Part shown: one piece after another, positions 28,698-38,244 of the stretch
Position numbering within the stretch: position 1 is the first letter of the stretch
Layout: every line of letters starts with the position of its first letter
Source of the DNA: Phycisphaerales bacterium
Lineage (GTDB): Bacteria > Planctomycetota > Phycisphaerae > Phycisphaerales > UBA1924
NCBI GenBank assembly: GCA_007693785.1
Contig: RECY01000024.1
Span: forward strand, 1-64,000
Length of the DNA: 64,000 nt
Reading direction: 5' to 3'
Made by a program: the position numbers and the translations under genes
The notes under the pieces: model-generated
Database searches by the model: none
What the model saw: the letters and a program-made list of their open reading frames with translations, nothing else
Told to the model about the DNA's origin: nothing

Positions 28698-28771
28698 GGG
28701 CGTATAGCTCAGTTGGCTAGAGCGCTGCTGTCACATAGCAGAGGTCACTGGTTCGAGTCCAGTTACGCCCA
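28698..28771 (+). tRNA. tRNA-Val (anticodon CAC), 3' end is an attachment site
   Basis: A full cloverleaf: acceptor GGGCGTA/TACGCCC, D arm GCTC-AGTTGGCTA-GAGC, anticodon stem CTGCT/AGCAG around loop GTCACAT (anticodon CAC), T arm ACTGG-TTCGAGT-CCAGT, discriminator A. CCA is not encoded. Base 32 of the loop is G, where a pyrimidine is usual. The last 21 bases (28751-28771) recur at 38224-38244, and an integrase gene runs into the tRNA from the other strand, so this is the attB of the element at 28772-38244. Its natural terminator now lies 9.5 kb away. Confidence 0.93.
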
Positions 28772-30083
28772 TTAACTTATTTTCCACAGAATCACACACG
28801 ATACCACAGCCAACCATAAGCCCTTGATTTTCATGGCTTTCCGGTTGGCTTCGTTGTTCCTTGGGTTTGTGTGGGCGCGCCTGTGTTGCCGGATTTGTTG
28901 CCATAGTTGTTGCCGGATTTGTTGCCGCCTTACCGATCCCCGCCGCAAGGTCAAAGTGTGCGTCCCGGGTTTGCAGGTAGTGCTGAGCCGCGATCATCGG
29001 GCTATGCCCGAGCCAGCCGGCGACGACGTGGGCCGGGAAGTGCTCCACCCAATCCGTCGCGCACGACGCCCGCAGGTTGTGGAACAGCCGGGGCCAGGGC
29101 TTCACACCCGCCCGGGCGATGATCCGTTCAAACTGAGTGCGAAGGTTCACCCGCCCATCCCGCAGGCGGGGCACCACGGCTTCCGCCCCCGGCTCGGCCC
29201 GGTCGAACAAGGCTTGCAGGATCGGGCGCAGTTCGGGGGCAATCGGGACCACCCGAACCGCGTGCCCTTCATGGCTGGCTGTTTTGGGGCTCCGAACGGT
29301 CATCCGGCCCTTGTCCCAAACAATGTCACCCCACCGCAGGCCGACGACTTCGGACGGGCAGCGGAGCCCGGCGAACCGCGACAGGGCGACGATCGCGCGC
29401 CATTCGTCATCGGGGCACGCCGCCAGAATCGACCGGATGGTTTCGACTGGGACGTAGAACGCGCGATCGGGGTTCGATTGCGAACCGGCCCGCAGGTCGG
29501 CAAACGGGCTGGAGTCCATCAAGCCCCAGCGTACCGCCCGCTTGAAGATCGCCCGCGCAACGTGAACACGCTTTGCCACTGTTGCCGGTGCCAGTTGCTT
29601 TGTGGTTTCGTTCCCGTCTTCGTCGGTCACGTTCACCGGCTCGGCGATCGACTTCCGCCAGCTATCCGCGTATGCCGGGGTAATTGTCACCAGCGGGGTA
29701 TCGTCGCCCAGGTGCGCCCGCAGACTGTCGGTTGTTTGCTTGTACGCCGCCATCGTTGATGCCTTCACCGACGCCGCCGCGCAGAACCGATCCAGCAGCA
29801 TCCCCACCGTTACTACCGCCGTGTCCCGTGGTTGGGCCAGCTCCAGCGCGACTACCCGGGCATGGATTCGATCATCGATCCGTTCCAGCCACCGCACAGC
29901 GTCGTAGTGCGGGGCCGTGTCGTGTTGCTTGGCTTCCAGCAGGTGCTCAAGCGCCGACAGGGCCAGCAGCGCGTTCCGTTCAGAACACTTGCCCAGCCGC
30001 AGGCTTTTCTGTTTCCCCGCCGTATCACGGAACATGATCCGCTTCAACTCGCCCCGCTCGCCTTCGCGTCCGATGCTCGCCAT
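28731..30083 (-). CDS. int: Tyrosine recombinase (integrase), truncated by integration
   Basis: Site-specific recombinase that should move the element. 450 residues as integrated. N-terminal arm-binding/SAM-like core domain (residues about 85-190: VGMLLDRFCAAASVKASTM), catalytic domain with Arg241 (RFAGLRCPSEV), His335 and Arg338 (HNLRASC), His360 (WLGHS) and Tyr369 (QHYLQT). A Thr/Asn-Pro-Ala linker (ATNPATTMATNPATQ) follows. The last codons (MGVTGLEPVTSAM) are read from the tRNA, and the stop lies in the anticodon loop. The same frame continues from the att core at the right end (38223-38006), so the excised circle should encode 516 residues. Confidence 0.92.
   Translation of the reverse strand: MASIGREGERGELKRIMFRDTAGKQKSLRLGKCSERNALLALSALEHLLEAKQHDTAPHYDAVRWLERIDDRIHARVVALELAQPRDTAVVTVGMLLDRFCAAASVKASTMAAYKQTTDSLRAHLGDDTPLVTITPAYADSWRKSIAEPVNVTDEDGNETTKQLAPATVAKRVHVARAIFKRAVRWGLMDSSPFADLRAGSQSNPDRAFYVPVETIRSILAACPDDEWRAIVALSRFAGLRCPSEVVGLRWGDIVWDKGRMTVRSPKTASHEGHAVRVVPIAPELRPILQALFDRAEPGAEAVVPRLRDGRVNLRTQFERIIARAGVKPWPRLFHNLRASCATDWVEHFPAHVVAGWLGHSPMIAAQHYLQTRDAHFDLAAGIGKAATNPATTMATNPATQARPHKPKEQRSQPESHENQGLMVGCGIVCDSVENKLMGVTGLEPVTSAM
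28751..28771 (+). repeat. Attachment site, left (within tRNA-Val)
   Basis: GTTCGAGTCCAGTTACGCCC plus A, the T-arm and acceptor end of the tRNA. Identical over 21 bases to 38224-38244. It keeps the tRNA gene intact after insertion. Confidence 0.92.
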
Positions 30084-31570: not shown

Positions 31571-32023
31571 CGACGCGCGACGGTCGGGGTGTTCCGGGTC
31601 ACTTCGGAAAAGGGGTACACAGGGCACGTCGCCCCACGCATCCGCGCCCTCGGGCGGTTCGGGCAAGGGGGGAAGGGGGTCGGGTGTCGCCCGGTCGGCG
31701 TCGATCGCCTCGCCGGTTGCGATCAGCCATGCCGGCGAGCCGGGGTGCGTTGGAAGTCCGAGTTCTTCCGCGACGCCCAGCCGTTCGGCCAACACGTAGC
31801 GCCCTTCCTCGCCGGCGACGGGCGCGGTCAGCATGAACAGCACGTCCAGCTTGTGTTGTCGCAGTTCGGCGACTTCGCCGGGCAACAGCTCGCCGCGCCA
31901 CGCGACGCGATCCGAGCCGACCGCGGCAAGCTCGACCCCACGCGACCCGAGCCCGCGGAGCAGTTCGGCGACCACCGGCGGAAGCTCGCCGATCCCTCTG
32001 AAGTTGGGACGGTGCGGGATCAC
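31523..32023 (-). CDS. Small protein with TubC-docking-like N-terminus
   Basis: 166 residues; ATG overlaps the primase stop (ATGA at 32020-32023), so the two are coupled. Residues 12-55 (ELPPVVAELLRGLGSRGVEL, then RVAWRGELLPGEVAELRQHK) resemble the TubC N-terminal docking fold, which is often found attached or next to primases of mobile elements. A GSPAWLIATGEA segment follows, then a Pro/Glu-rich stretch. The last 20 or so residues are read out of frame through a duplicate of its own 3' region, so the present C-terminus is probably not original. Function unknown; an accessory to the primase is inferred from coupling. Confidence 0.7.
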   Translation of the reverse strand: MIPHRPNFRGIGELPPVVAELLRGLGSRGVELAAVGSDRVAWRGELLPGEVAELRQHKLDVLFMLTAPVAGEEGRYVLAERLGVAEELGLPTHPGSPAWLIATGEAIDADRATPDPLPPLPEPPEGADAWGDVPCVPLFRSDPEHPDRRASRTGSGWQHTRARRRG

Positions 32024-34575
32024 AGCAGCCCACTCCAGCCGGCGGGCAGCGCGCCATTCTCCGCGGTCGCTTCACTTGCGACAGCGACGAAACCCCCCGC
32101 CGCGATACCGCCAGTAGGGGTTTCGTCGCATGGCGCAGCGTCGCCGCGCTGAGACACCAGCCGGACGCGCTTCGCCGGACGCCCGCCCTTCGCGCCGTCG
32201 CCATCCTGAACCCACGCCGCGACGCTCGACGCCACCAGTTCGCCCAGGGCCTTTGCGGCCCGTTCAGGGTCGCCGCGGAACGCGCTCGGGCCGCGGGTCA
32301 GGTCGCGGACCGTCGCCGTGCCGCCTTTCGATTCGATCCACTCCACCAGCGCCGCACGCTCGCGGTCTTCGGGCGAGGCGGTCAGCCCTTCCCGCGCATG
32401 CCGCTCGGCGTCCGCCGCGAAGCGTCCCCACGCCAGCGCCGCCCGCATCGTCGCCCCGTCGATCGGGCCGGCGTCGTCGGGCGTGCCACGCACCGCCCAG
32501 GTCGCCAGCGCGTGCAGCACGCCCGCGATCCGCAGCACCGCGCCGGGAAACTTGCTCGCCCATGCTCGGCGTTCGTAGTGCTCCCCGCCCGGCCGCATCG
32601 CCGGTTCAACTTCGCGACGGAAGGCGACGAACAGCGTGCCCGCCTCGGGGTCGAGCCGTACCGTCGCCGGCGTGTCGCGGGGCGCGTGCTCCAGCAGCCC
32701 GCGGATCAACCGATCCCACGCGCGGGCCAGCCGCTCGGGCACGGGTGGAGTTTCGATCTTGCGGAAGCCCAAATTGTCGGGCGGCCTCGACACCAGGAAC
32801 CGGGCGAGGAAGCCGTTGGTGCGTGCGTCCGCGTTCGCCCAAAGTTCTTCCACCGCTTCGGGTTGAGCGACGACCGCCAGCGCCGCCGCGGGGCGCGGAA
32901 CGTGGACGCTCTCGCGCCCCATCCGATCCTCGTGGATCGCGTCCCCCGCGTGCGCCTTGAGCAGTGTTCCCCAGGCGGGAGACTCGCCGTAGCGCCGGCC
33001 CGTGGTCGTGCGCAACACGTCCGCCTCGGGATCAGCAACCAACGCCCGCCCGCCGTGCCGCGCGAGGTGCCGAACCAGGGCCTCGGGCGTCGCGTCGGAA
33101 ATGACCAGGCGCGGGGCTTGGGGCACGTCGGGCAGCGTTTCCAGCTCCGCCGCCGCCGCGTCCGCGTCGTGTTTTGCGGCTTTGTATTGGTCGGGTTTCG
33201 CAGAAACGGCCTTTCGCCGCAGCGCGTCGTAGCGATCCTCAGCGAACGCCCGATCCCGCACAGCGTCGGCAATGAACGGCGCGAGGCGTTCGGCTTCTTC
33301 CCGCTCCCAAGCATTGACCGGCGCGGTCAACGCCCGGAACACCGCCGACTTCCGCGACCCGCTCGGCGCGAGCACCAGCGTCCACAGCGGGGCGGGCTCG
33401 ACCCATCCCCCGCCGTCGATTTCAACCACGCCCGCGCAGCACGCCGACGCGATCGACAGCGCAAGCATCGCCGCCATTTCGGGCGGGGTTTGCGTTGCCT
33501 CGCTCAGTGCCGCGAGAAACTCTCGTAGCTCGCTCAGGCGCTCGGGGAACACTTCGGCCAGGTCGAGCGTCGGGGCGAGCGCCGGAGCCGGCACAGTCAA
33601 TCCAGCCGAATCCTCGGGCTCACTCGCGTCAGCCAGTGCTTCAATCTCCGCGCGGATCGCGTCCGCGTCGCCGGCGCGATGCTCCACCAGGTCAGCCATG
33701 TCACCGCCTTCGGGCATCCCTGCCCAGAGTTCAACCAGCCGAACCACCCGCACCGACACCGCGCCCGCCGCGCTGGCGAGCCGCGCCACGTCCTCCGCGT
33801 ATTTCTCGCCGGCGTCGTCGTGGTCGGGGAGGATCACCACGTCTCGCCCGGCCATCGGGGACCAGTCCGCTTTGTTCGCAGACTTCGCCCCGTGGGGGCT
33901 TGTCGTCGCGACCAGCCCAGCCGCTCGCGCCGCGTCCGCCGCCTTCTCCCCTTCGCACACCCAGACCCGTGCGCCCGCCGGCGTCGCCAGCAACTCGGGT
34001 AAGCCGTACAGCCGGCGCGGCTCCGGCATCCCGCCGATACACCACCCCGACCCGTCCGGCAGCCGCGACACGGGGCGAATGGTCTTCCCGGTCGGCGTGT
34101 TCCAGCGTGCAACAACGCCCACCGGCTCGCCGCCGGCGTTGTGGTAGGTCCAACTCTCCGAGCGCGGGCCGAGCCGAGCCTCGATATACGCCATCGCTTC
34201 GCGGGCGGTCGGAAAGGTGCGGGGCTTGGGTTCGGGCCGGCGGCTTGCGACGAAACCCGCCGTCGCGATACCGCTAGCAGGGGTTTCGTCGCCGTCGCAG
34301 CGTCGCCGGGGCTTCGGCGCGTGCCCGTTGCGTCGCGTCGGGTCGTCCGCGAACAGGTCGGACCACTTCAAGCCGATCGCGCGCAGCACGTCCGACGTGT
34401 CGCATCCGCGCTGGCATTTCACCAACACCTTCCCGTTGTCTCCGGTGCCGATCGACAGGGAAGGGTTCCGGTCATCGTGGGCGGGGCACCGGCAGGACCA
34501 GCCTTCGCCGGATCGCTTGGGCGTGTGTCCGTGCTCGCGCAGGGCGGAGAGAATGCGGTTTACGGGGTCGCTCAT
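32020..34575 (-). CDS. CHC2-Toprim primase with DUF3987 domain
   Basis: Likely replication protein of the element, 851 residues. CHC2-type zinc finger in residues 24-65 (GWSCRCPAHDDRNPS, VKCQRGCDT), Toprim-like domain about 195-285 (GARVWVCEGEKAADAARAAG, DVVILPDHDDAGEKYAEDV), then a DUF3987 region from about 330 with a P-loop-like LAPSGSRKSAVF. The C-terminal part has winged-helix-like segments (LVEWIESKGGTATVRDL). Two palindromic repeats are inserted in frame: residues about 95-110 and 816-831 read GDETPASGIATAGFVA and CDETPTGGIAAGGFVA. Coupled by ATGA overlaps to the genes on both sides. Confidence 0.88.
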   Translation of the reverse strand: MSDPVNRILSALREHGHTPKRSGEGWSCRCPAHDDRNPSLSIGTGDNGKVLVKCQRGCDTSDVLRAIGLKWSDLFADDPTRRNGHAPKPRRRCDGDETPASGIATAGFVASRRPEPKPRTFPTAREAMAYIEARLGPRSESWTYHNAGGEPVGVVARWNTPTGKTIRPVSRLPDGSGWCIGGMPEPRRLYGLPELLATPAGARVWVCEGEKAADAARAAGLVATTSPHGAKSANKADWSPMAGRDVVILPDHDDAGEKYAEDVARLASAAGAVSVRVVRLVELWAGMPEGGDMADLVEHRAGDADAIRAEIEALADASEPEDSAGLTVPAPALAPTLDLAEVFPERLSELREFLAALSEATQTPPEMAAMLALSIASACCAGVVEIDGGGWVEPAPLWTLVLAPSGSRKSAVFRALTAPVNAWEREEAERLAPFIADAVRDRAFAEDRYDALRRKAVSAKPDQYKAAKHDADAAAAELETLPDVPQAPRLVISDATPEALVRHLARHGGRALVADPEADVLRTTTGRRYGESPAWGTLLKAHAGDAIHEDRMGRESVHVPRPAAALAVVAQPEAVEELWANADARTNGFLARFLVSRPPDNLGFRKIETPPVPERLARAWDRLIRGLLEHAPRDTPATVRLDPEAGTLFVAFRREVEPAMRPGGEHYERRAWASKFPGAVLRIAGVLHALATWAVRGTPDDAGPIDGATMRAALAWGRFAADAERHAREGLTASPEDRERAALVEWIESKGGTATVRDLTRGPSAFRGDPERAAKALGELVASSVAAWVQDGDGAKGGRPAKRVRLVSQRGDAAPCDETPTGGIAAGGFVAVASEATAENGALPAGWSGLL
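32084..32129. repeat. 46-bp palindromic repeat, copy A (inside primase 3' end)
   Basis: Arms GCGACGAAACCCC (32084-32096) and GGGGTTTCGTCGC (32117-32129) around a 20-base centre containing CCGCGATACCGCCAG. A conserved flank (GCAGCGTCGCC) follows. In the minus-strand frame it encodes DETPTGGIAAGGFV. Confidence 0.85.
34247..34292. repeat. 46-bp palindromic repeat, copy B (inside primase 5' part)
   Basis: Arms GCGACGAAACCC (34247-34258) and GGGGTTTCGTCGC (34280-34292), centre with TCGCGATACCGCTAG, followed by the flank CGTCGCAGCGTCGCC. It has the same length and the same reading phase as copy A and encodes DETPASGIATAGFV. Confidence 0.85.
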
Positions 34576-34781
34576 GCTGCGACCCCCTTGCTCGCTTCGA
34601 TCAGCCGCCGCAGGTCGGCCACGTCGAACAGACGCCGCGCCGCGATCTTCACGCTCGGCAGTTCGCCGCGTACCCGCAGGTTGTCGATGGTGCCGGGCGA
34701 CACGCCCAGCAGGCGGGCAGCTTCCCGCCGATCCACCAGCAGCGGGGCGGTTGTTGTCGGGTGGCTCGGGTTAGCTGTCAC
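34572..34781 (-). CDS. Excisionase-like helix-turn-helix protein 1
   Basis: 69 residues, GTG start. A single winged HTH of the MerR/excisionase (helix-turn-helix 17) type: LVDRREAARLLGVSPGTIDN followed by LRVRGELPSVKIAARRLFDV and ADLRRLIEASK. Such small proteins in integrated elements act as recombination directionality factors or as regulators. It overlaps the primase start by four bases and the second HTH gene by eleven. Confidence 0.85.
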   Translation of the reverse strand: MTANPSHPTTTAPLLVDRREAARLLGVSPGTIDNLRVRGELPSVKIAARRLFDVADLRRLIEASKGVAA

Positions 34782-34965
34782 GCGACACCCCGCTTTCCTG
34801 CCGCTCGGCCAGAGCTTTCAGCACCGCCGCCAGGTCGAACATGCGCATCCGACCCGCGCGGATGCAAGGCAACCGCCCCGCGTCCGCTTCTCGCTTCAAC
34901 CACGCGACAGGTAGCCCCGTGCGCTCCGCCAGACAGTGCAACGTCAGAAGTTTTGCGTCGTTCAT
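34771..34965 (-). CDS. Excisionase-like helix-turn-helix protein 2
   Basis: 64 residues from ATG 34965 (the frame is open further upstream, but that part is unlike the family). LTLHCLAERTGLPVAWLKRE, then ADAGRLPCIRAGRMRMFDLA and VLKALAERQ: a helix-turn-helix with the wing typical of excisionase/AlpA-like proteins. It is the partner of the HTH gene it overlaps; one of the two is a plausible excisionase and the other a transcription switch, but sequence alone does not say which. Confidence 0.8.
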   Translation of the reverse strand: MNDAKLLTLHCLAERTGLPVAWLKREADAGRLPCIRAGRMRMFDLAAVLKALAERQESGVSRDS

Positions 34966-35053
34966 GCGTCGAGCATTGACGCGAGAAAACTCGAATGAAA
35001 CGCGACAGGATCGCGCCTCACGCACCCTCACGGATTTTCATGGATTTTCACGC

Positions 35054-36018: not shown

Positions 36019-36702
36019 TCACCGATGCGCGATCCGGGCGCACCCCCGGCACGCCACGCCCGACGCCAGGGCGTACAGGTGAACCCGCTTCGCCCCGCAC
36101 CGCGGGCAGGTCAGGTAGAGCCGCGTTCCATAGCGGGCGTCCGGCTCGGCCACCACCACCACCCGCACCCCGGGGGCGTCGGGATCGTCCGCCGGGCGGG
36201 CGTCGATCGCTTCCACCCGCGCCGGGTCCAGCCCCTCGGTGAGCGCCTGCCGCCGGATCGCGTTCGCGTCGATGCGAGCCGGGAAGTCCGACACCCGCCA
36301 GCGTGCCCGCGGGCGGCCCGTCAGCTTCGCCGGCAGCTCACCGCCCCAGGCGTACCGCAGCACCCGGGCCGAAGCCGCCACGTCCGCCCCGGTCATCGCG
36401 AGCGACGTTTCGCACCAGGCGAGCAGCTCGCGGGCGTTTTGGTTCGGGGCCTTCTCCGGGCGCTCGGCCAGCGCCGCAAGGAACCGGGCGACCAGGGCCT
36501 CGCGGTCGGCGGCCGGGGCGTTGTCCAGCCACCCGCGCCGGATCGCCGTGCCCATCAACCGGCAGTCACCGCGGAAGTGCCGGGGGTCATCGAACAGGAT
36601 GCTAAACTTGGGGGGCGTGTCGCCGGCGTCGGTGCCGCCCGCTCCGCGAGCCGCCGGCGTCGATTCGGGAAACCCCTTCGCGGGGGTTGGGGGCGTCGTC
36701 AT
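36019..36702 (-). CDS. Unknown protein with C-terminal zinc ribbon
   Basis: 227 residues; ATG overlaps the polymerase stop (ATGA at 36699-36702). A disordered Pro/Gly N-terminus, a helical middle (FSILFDDPRHFRGDCRLMGT, LVARFLAALAERPEKAPNQN) and a C-terminal zinc ribbon YLTCPRCGAKRVHLYALASG followed by CRGCARIAHR. The helical part may be an adaptor; the ribbon is of the kind found in phage and transposon proteins. Coupling to the polymerase suggests they act together, but no function is known to me. Confidence 0.75.
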   Translation of the reverse strand: MTTPPTPAKGFPESTPAARGAGGTDAGDTPPKFSILFDDPRHFRGDCRLMGTAIRRGWLDNAPAADREALVARFLAALAERPEKAPNQNARELLAWCETSLAMTGADVAASARVLRYAWGGELPAKLTGRPRARWRVSDFPARIDANAIRRQALTEGLDPARVEAIDARPADDPDAPGVRVVVVAEPDARYGTRLYLTCPRCGAKRVHLYALASGVACRGCARIAHR

Positions 36703-38009
36703 GGGCGATCCCTTCCAGGGCGGGCGCTTCGGCCCGTCCCGTCCACGTCGGGCAAGTCCAGGTCCGGGGGCGCGCCGAAGGGGATGCGGCGCGGGGCCGT
36801 GCCGCGGGCGTCGTGCATCGCGCCCAGGTACACCACGTCCGCGCCGTACCGCAGATTGATCCGGTCCACCGCTTGCATGAGCGACGCCCGCGCCCGCTCG
36901 CCGTCGAACAGCGAGAGTTGGGCGTCGGCCCGCTCCAGCCCTTCCAGCCGTACGCCGACTTGCAGCACCCGCCCGCCCGGGGCGTCGGCCCACAGCGCCA
37001 GCAGCGCCCGGTGCAACGCCGCCGTGTCGTCCGTTGGGCGTACCGGCGTCCAGTCCCCCCACCCGCCGCCGTCAGCAGGGCGGATCGACAGCGAGAGCCG
37101 CGACGCCCGGTAGCCGAGCGAGCGCATCCGTTGGGCCGCCTTCGCCAGCAGGCGCAGGCTCACCGCCCGCGCCGCCTCGGGCGATCGGTGCGCCGGCGGC
37201 AGGACGTGTTGATGCCCGACCGTCCGCCGGTGGGTCCGCGGGCCGGGGTGTTGATCGCCGCGGAGCCAGTGCCACCAGTAGACGCCGAGCACGCTCCCCC
37301 ACGCCGCGCGGAGTTGTGCGGGCGTCCGGGCGTACAGGTCTTCCACGCTGGCGATCCCCGCCGCCCGTAGGCGTCGGTTGATCCCCTTGGAGATACCCGG
37401 TAGGTCCGTCAGGCGGAGCGCGAGCATCGGGCCGGGAAGCTCCGAGCGCTTCCAGACCGTCAGCCCGTCGGGCTTGCGGGAGCCGGCCGCGACTTTCGCC
37501 AGCAGCCGGTTCGGCGCGATCCCGACGGAGCAGGTGACGCACCCCACGCGCTCGCGAATCGCCCGCTTGATCCCCATCGCCAGCCGCTCGGCCACGTCGG
37601 GCGGGCGCTCATTCGCCATGAGTTCGCACCAGCATTCATCCACCGACTCGACCACCGACACCGGGAGCACCGTGTCGATCGCCGCGAGCAATTCGTGATG
37701 CACCCGGATGTACCGATCGGGGCGAGCTTGAACGATCGCGATGCCCGGGCAGAGCGTGCGGGCGTCCGCCACCCGGCACCCGGTCTTGACGCCGAAGGCT
37801 CGGGCTTCGTAGGACGTAGCGATACAACAGCCGGACGGGGCGGGAACGGGCGTCACGCCGACCGGGCGGCCGCGAAGCTCGGGGTGGTCCATTTGCTCCA
37901 CCGACGCAAAAAAGGCGTCCATATCCAGGAACAGGACCAGCAGTTCGGCGGGGGCGACCATGCCGACAATATACCGAACAAATACGGGATGGGAAGGGGT
38001 CGGGCTCAT
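36699..38009 (-). CDS. Y-family DNA polymerase (DinB/UmuC-like)
   Basis: Translesion polymerase, 436 residues from ATG 38009; an internal ATG at 37961 would give 420. Palm and fingers: VLFLDMDAFFASVEQ (Asp29, Asp31), SYEARAFGVKTG, and SVDECW with the catalytic Asp124-Glu125. Thumb HhH: ALRLTDLPGISKGINRRLRA; little finger domain about 270-400 (RSPEAARAVSLRLLAKAAQR). QLSLFDGE near the end is a clamp-binding-like motif. All catalytic acidic residues are intact. Carried by the element, with an ATGA overlap to the severed integrase tail upstream and to the zinc-ribbon gene downstream. Confidence 0.93.
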   Translation of the reverse strand: MSPTPSHPVFVRYIVGMVAPAELLVLFLDMDAFFASVEQMDHPELRGRPVGVTPVPAPSGCCIATSYEARAFGVKTGCRVADARTLCPGIAIVQARPDRYIRVHHELLAAIDTVLPVSVVESVDECWCELMANERPPDVAERLAMGIKRAIRERVGCVTCSVGIAPNRLLAKVAAGSRKPDGLTVWKRSELPGPMLALRLTDLPGISKGINRRLRAAGIASVEDLYARTPAQLRAAWGSVLGVYWWHWLRGDQHPGPRTHRRTVGHQHVLPPAHRSPEAARAVSLRLLAKAAQRMRSLGYRASRLSLSIRPADGGGWGDWTPVRPTDDTAALHRALLALWADAPGGRVLQVGVRLEGLERADAQLSLFDGERARASLMQAVDRINLRYGADVVYLGAMHDARGTAPRRIPFGAPPDLDLPDVDGTGRSARPGRDRP

Positions 38010-38223
38010 TCCCCGGGCTTCCCACTAGCCGACGCCGCGACCATCGCAACGATGCCAGCCCGGACGGCTTCGGGCAGGTCGGCCCACGCCGCGACCACGC
38101 CCGCGAGCCGGGGATCGGTTGGCTTCGCCACCCCCTCCGAATCACCGAACCGTGCGCCGGTGTTGCCGGATTTGTTGCCGTCCCACCCGGACACTCCCGA
38201 TTTCCTCGGAGAAAACGGGGGTA
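38006..38223 (-). pseudogene. int: Severed C-terminal coding part of the integrase
   Basis: 72 codons, open from the att core to TGA 38006. Starting from the 21-base att core it is in the same frame as the integrase end at 28751: GVTGLE then LPPFSPRKSGVSGWDGN and VVAAWADLPEAVRAGIVAMV. In the circle it would complete the integrase (residues 445-516) and overlap the polymerase start. As integrated it is preceded by a chance chromosomal extension up to ATG 38278, which I do not count as a separate gene. AWxxLPEAVRAGIxAMV resembles tails I associate with other planctomycete integrases (from memory). Confidence 0.75.
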
Positions 38224-38244
38224 GTTCGAGTCCAGTTACGCCCA
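38224..38244 (+). repeat. Attachment site, right
   Basis: Exact 21-base copy of the tRNA-Val 3' end at 28751-28771. It has no other tRNA parts upstream and marks the right boundary of the element. Confidence 0.92.

Follow-up and report, generated by a model that had tools for sequence, protein, structure and literature searches.

A central question of site-specific recombination is what stops a single integrase from reversing its own reaction. Phage lambda keeps its integrase from undoing its own work through Xis and IHF, and its attP lies outside coding sequence. In other phages, such as phiCTX, the integrase gene runs into attP only with its very 3' end, and integration may change a few of the last codons; we know of no conserved C-terminal module in overlaps of this kind.

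Two described systems place attP well within a gene. In the archaeal suicidal integrases of the SSV1, pTN3 and pT26-2 type, attP lies inside the integrase gene, which is split by integration into a tRNA gene and is intact only in the circle; the cut falls between Int(N) and the catalytic Int(C), and enzyme activity is lost (PMC8371274). This family, which has the PF16795 domain, is described as exclusively archaeal, and the placement of attP within an integrase has itself been called exclusively archaeal and suicidal (PMC8371274). In the integration-dependent immunity systems of mycobacteriophages (Broussard et al. 2013), attP lies within the repressor gene, and the viral form of the protein has a different C-terminal end from the prophage form (as described in PMC8092301). 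The part of the repressor lost on integration is often an ssrA-like tag that removes the viral product (PMC8092301, PMC9934374).

The element analyzed here lies in a 64,000-nucleotide stretch of a Phycisphaerales contig (RECY01000024.1, assembly GCA_007693785.1), referred to below as the window. As in the archaeal systems, its attP is located within the integrase gene (int). However, the split would remove only a C-terminal hairpin and leave the catalytic domain whole, and the protein is a lambda-like PF00589 enzyme without PF16795, in a bacterial host. Here, a bacterial form would lose a regulatory-looking module and the enzyme would not be destroyed. The initial annotation of this locus likened it to phages that carry attP within a repressor gene, and the comparison is apt: attP is in a coding gene, the C-termini of the two products differ, and integration would flip the switch. 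Unlike in those phages, the gene in question encodes the integrase and not a repressor, and the lost part is predicted to be a folded module without an ssrA-like C-terminus. A literature search, with many subscription papers outside its coverage, turned up no bacterial case in which integration removes a conserved C-terminal module from the integrase. In such an arrangement the reaction would edit the enzyme's own gene, providing a direct link between the state of the DNA and the form of the protein.

The integrated element and its target tRNA gene

The target is a tRNA-Val(CAC) gene (28698-28771, plus strand), detected with ARAGORN, the 3' part of which constitutes attB and the core. The two ends of the element share no exact repeat longer than the 21-bp core GTTCGAGTCCAGTTACGCCCA, which corresponds to the tRNA-Val 3' end. 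Its copies are at 28751-28771 (attL) and 38224-38244 (attR), and no third copy is present within the window. This 9.5-kb segment, with a direct repeat of a tRNA 3' end at both borders and an integrase at one of them, is a tRNA-targeting integrative element.

The integrase gene occupies positions 28731-30083 on the minus strand and encodes a lambda-type tyrosine recombinase. In the integrated copy, the 450-residue product ends in ...KLMGVTGLE-PVTSAM, where PVTSAM comprises the six residues after the shared core, and the TGA stop codon (28731-28733) is located in the anticodon-loop sequence of the tRNA gene. When the right core copy is read in the int frame, it gives GVTGLE-LPPFSPRKSGVSG... and continues for 72 codons to a TGA at 38006-38008. 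This detached 3' end (38006-38223, minus strand, 72 codons and the stop) encodes a linker and a conserved C-terminal hairpin, which includes the conserved tail motif DPRLAGVVAAWADLPEAVRAGIVAMVAASA (38021-38122, minus strand), which models of relatives predict to be a pair of helices. When the two ends are joined in silico at the core, a single open reading frame of 516 codons results, to which the right end contributes 72. The initial annotation had proposed a 450-residue integrated enzyme that stops in the anticodon loop and bears six tRNA-derived residues, a 72-codon continuation at the right end and a 516-residue circle form; all of these were borne out to the base. In the window alone, the open joined frame is no more than chance would provide, as a frame picked at random in this GC-rich region stays open for at least 78 codons in 43% of cases (P=0.43), and its significance comes from the homologues.

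Three further genes of the element were annotated, all on the minus strand. One encodes a primase/helicase (DUF3987; 32020-34575), and another encodes an excisionase-like HTH protein (34771-35031), of which 13 of the other loci fetched contain a homologue, most of these loci being elements of the same type. The third gene, 36699-38009, indicates that this integrative element carries a Y-family DNA polymerase, and its ATG overlaps the stop codon of the detached int tail (ATGA). Translational coupling of the tail to the next gene was considered as a conserved trait and rejected, since the ATGA overlap occurs in the window only and the next gene varies among relatives.

Conservation of layout and reading frame

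Relatives of the integrase are present in 97 of 121 genomes from the same family and order, and the 78-residue tail, searched alone with an E-value cut-off of 0.1, has matches in 75 of these 121. Among the 21 tail matches with E<=0.0012 and an int gene within 40 kb, the tail is located upstream of int on the same strand in 20 cases and on the opposite strand in none. Once weaker matches are included, which a profile then confirmed (E<=4e-4), the upstream layout is observed in 26 of 27, although some of these matches were added because they were already paired with an int gene. The relative positions of int and tail are those expected if each marks one border of an integrated element and the borders meet in the circle. 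Close relatives were not found among plasmid records, and no tail was found among phage records. One integrase, in a record titled 'Leptolyngbya sp. PLA1' (L034, QWIH01000020.1), is 75% identical to that of the window and frameshifted; the record is probably a misnamed planctomycete metagenome-assembled genome (MAG).

Both ends were available for 30 int/tail pairs, some of them belonging to distantly related planctomycete families (G460, G400, G368 and G238). Direct repeats of 13-55 bp are found between the int 3' end and the tail start in these pairs, and most are recognisable 3' ends of tRNA or tmRNA genes, with tRNA-Val, Lys, Phe, Ile, Leu and Glu and tmRNA among the targets. Three of the cores were chosen by hand over a longer repeat that is not tRNA-like, and that of G075 was found by hand. 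The elements range from ~6 kb to ~70 kb in length. Two pairs of the distant G460 family (G460:C1; L152/L153 and L154/L155) delimit elements of ~70 kb that have the same layout and cores of 13-14 bp.

In 29 of the 30 pairs, int and tail form one uninterrupted reading frame across the core (p=3e-13 compared with an expected 1/3, a nominal value, as some pairs are related, including five tmRNA elements). The T-loop sequence of the core is not always read in the same phase. The majority of elements read ..G-L-E.. (GGA CTC GAA), the tmRNA group reads ..E-S-N.. (GAA TCG AAC), and G029 uses the third phase. With three phases in use, the in-frame join is no by-product of the tRNA sequence. Homologues that ended before the core would have spoken against the arrangement, but 25 of the 29 nearest homologues run antisense into a tRNA gene, and the other four are decayed or fragmentary. 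The sole out-of-frame pair (L073, in G006) has its shift within a linker that contains many runs of G and C, and the shift probably reflects decay or a sequence or assembly error.

The detached tail

Alignment of 21 tails gives the consensus DPDLAxVVAAWxxLPPAxRAGIxAMVxA, in which L, W and L are invariant, and a profile of this motif has matches in 89 of 392 genomes, phylum-wide. Close pairs have a tail dN/dS ratio of 0.39 in the fused frame, and the overall value is 0.53; the two alternative frames give 0.89-1.0 and 2.0-2.8. These ratios are descriptive, as the pairs overlap. Substitutions fall mostly at third positions of the fused frame. Tail divergence also correlates with int divergence (Mantel r=0.52, p=2e-4), though the two are kilobases apart when integrated. 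The substitution pattern indicates protein-level selection on the hairpin in the fused reading frame. The initial annotation had suggested looking for the tail in homologues and had noted that unconserved tails would count against it; the tail is both present and conserved.

No relative and no recognised domain was found for the tail in Pfam, NCBIfam or the sequences of the PDB. A UBM-like domain was considered, with single weak matches only that were judged to be due to chance. An ssrA-like degradation tag was also rejected, as the C-termini of 30 tails lack a common AA-type tag.

Circular and fused copies

An IMG/VR contig of 7355 bp (L135, IMGVR_UViG_3300042691_044896) has a 69-bp terminal repeat and closes to a circle of 7286 bp. 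The circle is satellite-like and encodes a prohead protease, a DnaB-type helicase, a small terminase and an integrase of this type. The integrase, of 505 residues, reads through a tRNA-like core (TGGGCGACGAGGGACTCGAAC, ..SVGDEGLELPSHLSG..) into a divergent tail. L135 is an unintegrated state with a fused int gene, as the initial annotation predicted. Its core was not found in the 121 related genomes searched. A fused int frame is also present in L138, in which part of the contig looks chromosomal and the free-DNA state is uncertain, and in L104, which is decayed; among the fused copies, L135 is the only one that clearly comes from a circle. A further candidate, L083 (G056:C54), was rejected because its tail is in another frame. 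Given this natural circle and the in-frame joins of the reconstructed pairs, integration very probably swaps a full-length integrase for a truncated one, which is the change of recombinase originally proposed for this locus.

Integrase architecture and candidate arm-type sites

A Pfam scan of the integrase detects the PF00589 catalytic domain (2.6e-13) and PF13102 only; PF16795 was not found. Residues R241, K267, R338 and Y369 are invariant in 21 integrase relatives. AlphaFold models of two fused proteins agree in predicting an N-terminal beta-beta-beta-alpha domain, followed by core-binding and catalytic domains to approximately residue 372. Beyond these is a linker of 80-95 residues (374-467 or 377-460) with pLDDT<50, which is predicted to be disordered, and then a helical hairpin at the C-terminus, for which pLDDT is mostly 80-91 although only 11 sequences were available. 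The best match among solved structures is full-length lambda Int (1z1b, 1z1g), and the likeness to lambda Int may extend to the predicted N-terminal domain and to candidate arm repeats on both sides of the core.

In the window, the candidate arm-type repeat GGCAACAAATCCGGCAACA occurs three times on the minus strand, with two left copies within the int coding sequence (28908-28926 and 28884-28902) and a right copy within the tail coding sequence (38161-38179). Direct repeats in the linker-coding sequence flank the core in 29 of 30 reconstructed attPs. They fall between roughly -170 and -100 on one side and between +60 and +105 on the other, mostly 125-170 bp ahead of the core start and 60-90 bp past it, and they are alike within one element and different between elements. 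Similar repeats are found in L135 at -157/+62 (22/22) and in L138 at -151/+78 (20/20). These repeats are most simply explained as arm-type integrase sites, and their presence alongside a predicted beta-beta-beta-alpha domain suggests two-site DNA binding. The whole attP, consisting of the P-arm repeats, the core and the P'-arm repeat (~300 bp), would then be embedded in the part of int that encodes the predicted disordered linker. To our knowledge, lambda Int has no counterpart of this extra linker and C-terminal hairpin.

Possible roles of the two integrase forms

A model for these elements begins with the circle, which encodes the full-length integrase (516 residues in this case). Integration would exchange strands at the core, so that the catalytic part stays at attL and the hairpin is left stranded at attR. 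The truncated gene at attL would gain a short, unconserved ending read antisense from the tRNA gene, and excision would rebuild the full-length gene. Recombination would, in effect, signal the element's status to the very enzyme that carries it out. An element with attP inside int, in which integration changes the isoform and the two isoforms have directional roles, is the best explanation as a whole, and we consider it probable.

The roles themselves can be assigned with less assurance. Because selection acts on a module present only in the circular state, the two forms are likely to be functionally different. We lean modestly towards a division in which the full-length form, found only in the circle, favours integration, while the truncated form, found only in the chromosome, does not re-integrate and instead excises the element with the excisionase-like protein. 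That this applies to a phylum-wide bacterial integrase family, toggled by recombination between a hairpin form for integration and a hairpin-less form capable only of Xis-dependent excision, has about an even chance of being correct. If it does, the state of the element is hard-wired into the recombinase, with no separate regulator.

An alternative is that the tail is needed for catalysis, as in a bacterial version of the suicidal integrases, in which case integration would kill the enzyme and trap the element until full-length Int is supplied in trans. The archaeal precedent and the removal of a conserved, selected module on integration are in keeping with this, but the truncated form retains all of PF00589 along with the R, K, R and Y residues, and excisionase-like genes would be of little use if self-excision were impossible. 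Such a loss of activity is unlikely. With an intact catalytic domain and excisionase-like genes in many elements, the lock suggested in the initial annotation would more probably be a switch between two forms than a permanent block; where an excisionase-like gene is present, excision is to be expected and the integrated state need not be a dead end. It may also be that int and attP overlap merely for compactness, that both forms are equal, and that the tail has a general role, such as in stability or solubility, and is dispensable when integrated. An overlap of this kind could make for a compact module, and truncated forms do persist in many chromosomes. The protein-level selection on the tail, its co-variation with int and the phylum-wide maintenance of the layout at many targets all argue against neutrality, which we regard as improbable.

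Two further possibilities concern the tail frame itself. The frame upstream of the tail is open in some integrated copies, as it would be if the tail were an independent small protein translated at attR and its fusion in the circle were incidental. However, in about half of the tails the stretch from core to motif contains none of the codons ATG, GTG and TTG, so that a separately started peptide was rejected as a general rule, and the int frame is kept in 29 of 30 pairs, with a phase that varies between lineages together with int; an independent protein is thus very improbable. The last possibility is that a GC-rich sequence happens to stay open. Reading frames of this length (78 codons) are frequent in the region, but the motif, layout, frame and arm repeats are conserved in 30 elements and a natural circle exists, and chance is effectively ruled out by the homologues.

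Tails as markers of element borders

If integration truncates int, the planctomycete chromosomal integrase genes of this type are, as annotated, truncated genes, and the missing 3' ends may be used as markers of the far border of each element. In two loci, tail motifs occur in tandem (L120, 901-1599 and 1603-2004; L099, 3438-4121 and 4461-4679), which suggests successive integrations at one attachment site. Orphan tail motifs with no int relative nearby are found in many planctomycete families, and these may be the far borders of decayed elements or of elements with other integrases.
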